DNA from: an uncultured Pelagibacteraceae bacterium
GTDB taxonomy: Bacteria; Pseudomonadota; Alphaproteobacteria; Pelagibacterales; Pelagibacteraceae
Direction: 5' to 3'
Assembly: GCA_902552345.1 (NCBI GenBank)
Contig: CACDGO010000001.1
Location: forward strand, 186,001 to 250,000
Length of the DNA: 64,000 bases
The notes below the pieces were generated by a model that made no database searches, had not been told where the DNA came from, and saw nothing but the letters and a program-made list of their open reading frames with translations. A program made the translations under genes and the position numbers. This document shows, piece after piece, positions 4,301 through 4,951 of the stretch; the stretch's first letter is position 1, and each line of letters opens with the position of its first letter.

Positions 4301-4378
4301 TTTCTAGATTCAACTTTAAATTGAATCAAGGGTCAATTGATTTTAGAAAAAAAATGAGTCTTTTTGTGTTTTAGATTC
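4301..4378 (-). promoter_or_regulatory. ccrM upstream region with four GANTC sites
   Basis: The 78-bp gap between rnhB and ccrM holds GATTC (4307-4311), GAATC (4323-4327), GAGTC (4356-4360) and GATTC (4374-4378). All match GANTC, the presumed target of the adjacent methylase. In Caulobacter the ccrM promoter/leader also contains GANTC sites whose methylation lowers expression. By eye I found no comparable cluster in the other intergenic gaps. Core promoter hexamers are not clear to me. Confidence 0.6.
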
Positions 4379-4951
4379 TTAACTCGACAATATCTTGTGT
4401 ATCGGTTTAAAACCTTTTCTATGGTGAGAGGTTACACCAAATTTTTTTAAAGCCTTAAGATGAGCTTTGGTACCATATCCAAAATTTTTTTCCCAAGCAT
4501 AATTAGAAAATTTTTTTGATAACTTTGTCATTAGCCTATCTCTAAATACTTTAGCGATTATTGAAGCTGCACTTATTACTTTTTTTTTTTCATCTCCATT
4601 CACAATAGTTTTAAAATTTTTTAATCCTTTAGGAGCAAAATTTCCATCTATTAAAATTATATCCGGCTTTACAGAAAGTTTTTTTATAGCTCTTTTCATA
4701 GAAAGTAATGAAGCTTGTAAAATATTCAAATTCAAAATTTCTTCTACAGATGCCGTTCCGATAGAATAATAAGAGTTTTTTTTAATATGTTTAGAAATTC
4801 TTTCTCTTTTCAAAAATGATACTTTTTTTGAATCCTTTAAGAGTTTTAAATTTACAGTTTTTTTAAGTATAACAGCTGCGGAAACCACTGGACCTGCGAG
4901 ACATCCTCTACCAACTTCGTCAACCCCAACTATTAATTTTTTTTTTTTCAA
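4379..4951 (-). CDS. rnhB: Ribonuclease HII
   Basis: 190 aa. It cleaves RNA in RNA-DNA hybrids and single ribonucleotides embedded in DNA. The N-terminal motif GVDEVGRG (from residue 9) supplies the first metal-binding acidic pair, LIDGNF (about 100) carries another, and ISAASIIAKVFRD follows, all as expected for type 2 RNase H. Length is normal. It overlaps the upstream UDG gene by 4 bp and is separated from downstream ccrM by the GANTC-rich gap, so ccrM may be transcribed both by read-through and from its own promoter. Confidence 0.95.
   Translation of the reverse strand: MKKKKLIVGVDEVGRGCLAGPVVSAAVILKKTVNLKLLKDSKKVSFLKRERISKHIKKNSYYSIGTASVEEILNLNILQASLLSMKRAIKKLSVKPDIILIDGNFAPKGLKNFKTIVNGDEKKKVISAASIIAKVFRDRLMTKLSKKFSNYAWEKNFGYGTKAHLKALKKFGVTSHHRKGFKPIHKILSS

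Follow-up and report, generated by a model that had tools for sequence, protein, structure and literature searches.

GcrA prefers methylated GANTC, and mutation or loss of the site cripples the GcrA/CcrM promoters (PMC3667746, PMC3885167). In Caulobacter, a GANTC site placed between the −35 and −10 elements goes with activation in S phase, at 40–60 min of the cycle (PMC4287350). The methylase gene ccrM is itself predicted to be among the core targets of GcrA in most of 13 alphaproteobacteria, a status lost in Caulobacterales (Adhikari et al. 2021, PMC7987155), and few Pelagibacter orthologs have a high probability of GcrA regulation (PMC7987155). In Pelagibacter other than the one considered here, GANTC is methylated, with an origin-to-terminus methylation gradient (PMC9516812).

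SAR11 bacteria, among the most abundant cells of the ocean, make do with very few regulators and seem to time DNA methylation without CtrA. Here, we analyse the gap between rnhB and ccrM in a SAR11 genome, identified as such by its relatives, HIMB058 and single-cell genomes of uncultured Pelagibacteraceae. The gap lies in a stretch of 64,000 nucleotides that was analysed as a whole (hereafter, the window). According to the original prediction, four GANTC sites lie upstream of a presumed GANTC methylase gene; in Caulobacter, methylation of such sites dampens ccrM transcription, and conservation of the sites would imply a cell-cycle-like feedback loop in a streamlined genome.

The ccrM locus

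The presumption about the gene is upheld: its product is a true CcrM. The protein matches the structure of Caulobacter CcrMI (6pbd) with 469 bits over residues 7–350, is colinear with it over 344 residues, DPPY included, and carries the methylase domain PF01555 (229.9 bits) and a C-terminal RAMA domain (PF18755, 55.8 bits). Its score with the NCBIfam CcrM model is 569 bits, under a cut-off of 830 tuned to Caulobacter. As in other orphan methyltransferases of this type, the methylase domain with DPPY is joined to a CcrM-type C-terminal domain, no partner restriction enzyme is found and the rnhB–ccrM neighbourhood is kept. By reading, ccrM is flanked by rnhB and by a gene resembling those of FAD-dependent oxidoreductases. 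rnhB adjoins ccrM in all aligned loci of the genus, and the gap between the two measures 73–79 bp in nearly all of ~110 genus loci (55 bp in L038). The features of the locus are listed in Table 1. In a complete SAR11 genome of genus g11, ccrM appears split over two frames (G094:C1:621783-622831, L226), which could reflect a pseudogene or a sequencing error.

Table 1. Features of the rnhB–ccrM region, in window coordinates.
Feature	Position	Strand	Remarks
ccrM, GANTC adenine methyltransferase, 357 aa	3227..4300	-	structure, Pfam and NCBIfam matches
Proximal GANTC site nearest ccrM (GAATC on the ccrM strand)	4307..4311	-	overlaps putative −10 TTGAAT; in 80/87 loci
Inverted repeat GATTCAA-N7-TTGAATC	4307..4327	.	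arms ATTCAA / TTGAAT invariant in genus (0 changes)
Putative −10 TTGAAT	4308..4313	-	weak match, without A at position 2; 0 changes in 87 loci
Proximal GANTC site (GATTC on the ccrM strand)	4323..4327	-	+4 after TTGAC; in 80/87 loci
Putative −35 TTGACC	4331..4336	-	TTGAC invariant in 87/87 genus loci
Conserved T-run between distal and proximal pairs	4347..4354	-	no supporting hairpin
Distal GANTC site (GACTC on the ccrM strand)	4356..4360	-	in 49/87 loci
Distal GANTC site (GAATC on the ccrM strand), directly after rnhB stop	4374..4378	-	in 59/87 loci
rnhB (ribonuclease HII), upstream neighbour of ccrM	4379..4951	-	

Number and rarity of the GANTC sites

The 78 bp gap holds four GANTC sites, starting at 4307, 4323, 4356 and 4374, and the original prediction had placed them exactly (GATTC at 4307–4311, GAATC at 4323–4327, GAGTC at 4356–4360 and GATTC at 4374–4378). 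Across 436 kb of the same assembly, GANTC has a density of 1.58/kb, so that ~0.12 sites are expected in a gap of this length; the claimed excess over chance stands, and the expectation of ~0.2 sites originally attached to it does not. For this single gap, the Poisson probability of at least four sites is ~7e-6 and, by our own arithmetic, ~0.002 once corrected for all gaps of the genome. Counting sites gap by gap, which had been set beforehand as a test, showed that unrelated gaps lack a comparable density: of the 111 gaps of at most 150 bp in the 436 kb, 102 have no site, seven have one, one has two and the ccrM gap, alone in exceeding two, has four. Seven 78-bp intervals with four sites occur in the 436 kb; they overlap, and all hold the sites of the ccrM gap. 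A genome-wide search for triplets within ~70 bp gave a dozen overlapping matches, two of which are the ccrM gap, and the others are mostly coding-sequence-like. The cluster upstream of ccrM is real and well above chance.

Over the whole window, GANTC is depleted (115 sites observed versus 179 expected from dinucleotide shuffles); its under-representation has been published for Alphaproteobacteria. A second intergenic triplet, which includes TTGACATGAATC, lies at G000:C2:113600-113672 (L006:1501-1573) and is flanked by the gene for a tiny Lys/Arg-rich protein and an acyl-CoA synthetase-like gene.

Conservation within the genus

Distinct loci of the genus were compared (n=87), with the changes in each column counted by parsimony on the ccrM tree. 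The gap holds one to four GANTC sites across ~110 genus loci; among the 87 distinct ones, four sites are present in 36, three in 29, two in 17 and one in five, which puts at least three sites in 65 of the 87. Close relatives thus keep the sites upstream of ccrM, and the second test set beforehand, loss of the sites in relatives, does not refute the original prediction. All four sites recur in the genus, though unequally: the column counts separate a proximal pair inside an invariant inverted repeat from a distal pair with no excess conservation.

Changes in the proximal sites are confined to the outermost bases: the site at 4307–4311 has 0 changes inside and 7 at its outer C (4307), and that at 4323–4327 has 7 at its outer G (4327) and 0 at its other columns. 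The columns just beyond the outer G (4327) and the outer C (4307) have 26 and 23 changes, versus 7 each. The fixed columns of the distal sites change about as often as the remainder of the gap, and per-column parsimony over the 87 loci does not demonstrate selection on the distal pair. The zero-change block, together with the scarcer changes at the outer G and C, indicates that the proximal pair is constrained in two ways, as part of a block serving as promoter or operator and, to a lesser degree, as GANTC.

Putative promoter block and inverted repeat

On the ccrM strand, the gap contains an indel-free block, TTGACC-N3-GATTCAATTT-N3-GTTGAATC-N4/5-ATG, in which TTGAC, ATTCAATTT and GTTGAAT have zero changes and zero indels in the 87 loci, the N3 between the last two varying freely. 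TTGACC and TTGAAT are separated by 17 bp, a spacing that is fixed in the 87 loci, and would form a −35/−10 pair that places the start on ATG or immediately upstream of it; we infer the −10 because a consensus scan gave no match to TTGAAT. Every Pelagibacteraceae genus has TTGAC upstream of ccrM, as do 43 of the 56 regions sampled across the class.

The two proximal sites form the ends of the inverted repeat. Its outer G and C, which complete GANTC, change sometimes in the 87 genus loci, and its inner part never does; the arms show no co-variation because they are invariant. The full repeat is present in one copy per genus genome, at ccrM, with zero control matches. In genus g4, a looser inverted repeat overlaps the −35, and in other SAR11 genera the inverted repeat is present without GANTC.

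These observations bring up a dimeric transcription factor, a repressor by position, that would bind ATTCAA-N7-TTGAAT over the −10; the proximal GANTC sites would then be largely a by-product of its operator, and methylation would at most tune the binding of the factor. Such an operator would suit arms with 0 changes in 87 loci around a middle that is free to vary, the single occurrence of ATTCAA-N7-TTGAAT in the 436 kb, at ccrM, and the looser ATTCWA-N7-TTGA that stands upstream of ccrM in every sampled Pelagibacteraceae genus except g5, the GANTC-less g9 included. We nevertheless judge it unlikely that this is the main explanation, as constraint on the outer G and C is far stronger than on the adjacent columns (7 versus 23–26 changes), GANTC is enriched class-wide where no such repeat is evident, part of the repeat also serves as the putative −10 and no candidate factor was identified.

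Several other constructions were rejected. A regulon built on the inverted repeat has no second copy in 436 kb, at one copy per genus genome. A wider TTGAC-GANTC regulon in this genome was discarded as well, since reversed-pattern controls matched as often; the pattern has 14 matches, three of them outside open reading frames (at ccrM, at a helicase-like gene and in a basic-protein/ligase gap). An RNA hairpin or terminator in the gap was dismissed with a fold z-score of −0.04 and no terminator-like site on the ccrM strand.

The layout across SAR11 and the Alphaproteobacteria

The class was sampled with one genome per family of Alphaproteobacteria, yielding 56 ccrM upstream regions of 200 bp each. 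These regions contain 168 GANTC sites versus 20–37 occurrences for seven anagram palindromes, and TTGAC-N1-6-GANTC is found in 32 of the 56 versus 0–2 for the anagrams. Measured from the end of TTGAC in 43 promoters, the offsets of GANTC peak at +3 to +5, at +14 and at ~−20; sites at +3 to +5 and +14 give the layout known from promoters of the GcrA/CcrM type. The +14 peak comprises 16–19 of the 43, and a site at +14 shares its final C with the start of a CANNNT-type −10 (spacing judged by eye). The exact arrangement TTGAC-N3-GANTC-N6-GANTC is kept by most members of f2, the sister SAR11 family. In the window's genus, the first proximal site is found where the class prefers it (+4), whereas the second is shifted to +20, 6 bp off the class position, into the putative −10 and a repeat arm. 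The TTGAC-GANTC layout of genus g4 is a close variant with its sites placed differently, suggestive of turnover under selection.

Chance, or an AT-rich promoter composition inherited by descent with no role for methylation, would be compatible with the two distal sites, which are conserved no more than the local average. As an account of the cluster, it is already disfavoured and highly improbable: the anagram palindromes, which match GANTC in composition, occur several times less often (2–36 for each of the seven versus a GANTC total of 266 in 86 distinct genus gaps), and the offsets are fixed across the whole class.

The class position at ~−20 is often TTGATTCAAAA and resembles the ATTCAA-N7-TTGAC of g4 at the −35. 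Genus g9 offers a natural case in which the architecture has been lost: its seven sampled ccrM gaps (L216–L222) all lack GANTC and retain the −35 along with an inverted repeat in degenerate form, and GcrA is present. The ccrM layout is matched at ftsB-like genes (DivIC, PF04977), most of which sit just upstream of pdhA: in at least ten alphaproteobacterial families (L332–L336, L338–L341, L343), the promoter TTGAC-N-GAATC-N5-7-GATTC stands right before their start codon. This shared layout argues for a general type of methylation-read promoter, not one peculiar to ccrM.

GcrA and CtrA

GcrA is encoded in the source genome (PF07750, 132.9 bits) and in 40 of 41 other genomes of the family. GANTC sites lie between or touch the putative −35 and −10 elements, as in GcrA/CcrM promoters. 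The extended motif YGAKTCK (PMC7987155, where no strong preference was seen in Brevundimonas) is absent from the promoter sites: by reading, the proximal TGATTCA and TGAATCT (reverse AGATTCA) misfit it, and the distal TGAGTCT at 4356 fits. Upstream of gcrA itself, the source genome has one GANTC ~240 bp before the start, in or near the neighbouring gene, and none closer.

The presence of GcrA was rejected as a predictor of the ccrM architecture, with which it has no association, g9 having GcrA and no sites. Twelve class genomes without an above-cut-off GcrA match keep a GANTC-rich ccrM promoter, with a mean of 3.75 sites versus 2.80 in genomes with GcrA; hence, the reader may be something other than GcrA, or divergent copies may escape the Pfam model. 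Persistence of the architecture in genomes without a detected GcrA, together with the density of CcrM's own sites at its own promoter, would also accord with CcrM binding un- or hemimethylated promoter sites and blocking RNA polymerase, as a sensor of free targets. CcrM, however, has no helix-turn-helix or regulatory domain besides RAMA, and the literature searched offers no precedent for such repression by it, which make this role very unlikely.

CtrA was rejected as the driver of ccrM: none of the four OmpR-type regulators found in the assembly, which is 86% complete, is CtrA by NCBIfam, the best CtrA score being 144.6 with a cut-off of 350. The absence of CtrA in Pelagibacter has likewise been reported (Brilli et al. 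2010, PMC2877005). ccrM control of the Caulobacter type has CtrA present and activating; with no CtrA found, the Caulobacter circuit is not simply transferable to this genome.

Proposed mechanism

The binding preference of GcrA, activation through GANTC in the spacer, methylation in Pelagibacter and the prediction of ccrM as a GcrA target together make a methylation-read ccrM promoter the best reading. Judging from sequence, we find it reasonably likely that the gap is a methylation-reading sigma70 promoter coupling ccrM transcription to its own methylation; CcrM would probably sense its own marks, thereby setting its own production. The promoter would be of the sigma70 type (TTGACC, 17 bp, the weak −10 TTGAAT) and apparently leaderless or nearly so, with CcrM target sites built into the stretch contacted by RNA polymerase. 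Replication would turn the fully methylated promoter hemimethylated, and CcrM would afterwards restore full methylation. The methylation state, read by GcrA as a retained GANTC-m6A reader or by RNA polymerase itself, would alter promoter firing, and CcrM would thereby be made in step with replication of the ccrM locus, with no part for CtrA. What we infer in this scheme are the promoter elements, methylation at these particular sites, the identity of the reader and a transcriptional effect. Against the best reading count the inner repeat, more conserved in the window's genus than the bases that complete GANTC, and the small number of Pelagibacter orthologs with a high probability of GcrA regulation (PMC7987155); against GcrA as the reader counts g9, with GcrA and zero GANTC in the ccrM gap.

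As to the sign, analogy points both ways: the logic of GcrA favours methylation- or hemimethylation-dependent activation, and the Caulobacter ccrM precedent favours damping. In negative feedback of the Caulobacter type, full methylation would lower ccrM transcription, with shut-off upon remethylation, which is one sign of the best explanation and not exclusive of a methylation-read promoter. We regard it as possible, if doubtful. In Caulobacter, ccrM most probably responds to GANTC methylation of its own sequence (as cited in a passage of PMC3973325), and one proximal site here overlaps the putative −10; yet, Caulobacter ccrM is under the control of CtrA, a regulator not detected in this assembly (PMC2877005), and the +4 site between −35 and −10 occupies a position associated with activation in Caulobacter (PMC4287350).

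Self-methylation at the ccrM promoter, as first suggested, thus appears right in kind, the GANTC-rich promoter being conserved; its sign, reader and circuit are putative. Damping by methylation had been borrowed from Caulobacter and may not carry over: the SAR11 sites occupy the −35/−10 spacer and its surroundings, where GANTC in Caulobacter goes with activation (PMC4287350, PMC3667746). Of the Caulobacter-like loop, conservation of the sites in the genus and, in modified form, in the class is upheld, and simple transfer of the circuit is not, no CtrA having been found.

A ccrM promoter that carries the marks of CcrM, without equal in the sampled part of the genome, and whose pattern is conserved across the class points to a self-contained replication-coupled loop, which is testable with a short DNA fragment. 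In a more specific, minimal and CtrA-free SAR11 loop, methylation of the two repeat sites over the −10 would switch the binding of a dedicated regulator, and ccrM would be timed by replication of its locus; to this version we assign a low probability.

Comparison with known systems

The Caulobacter crescentus ccrM promoter resembles the present one in having its own methylation sites in the ccrM regulatory region. It is CtrA-activated, whereas no CtrA was found in the SAR11 genome, and the SAR11 sites lie in and around the spacer, one of them over the putative −10, within an inverted repeat undescribed for Caulobacter. The GcrA/CcrM sigma70 promoters of Caulobacter mipZ, podJ, ftsN and tipF (PMC3667746, PMC3885167) share GANTC in the −35/−10 region, the presence of a GcrA homolog and a weak −10; the SAR11 promoter is a putative member of this type, and its second site is 6 bp off the class position. 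Class-wide control of ccrM by GcrA was predicted by Adhikari et al. (2021, PMC7987155) for most of the 13 alphaproteobacteria. Their prediction disregards site position and is weakest for Pelagibacter, whereas here the geometry of +3 to +5 and +14 after TTGAC is resolved, persists in SAR11 and is remodelled in the window's genus. The idea of self-methylation of the ccrM promoter is already known, and its SAR11 version is new in detail; as far as the literature searched shows, what is new is a geometry fixed across the class, the remodelled form of it in a SAR11 genus and the invariant single-copy repeat.
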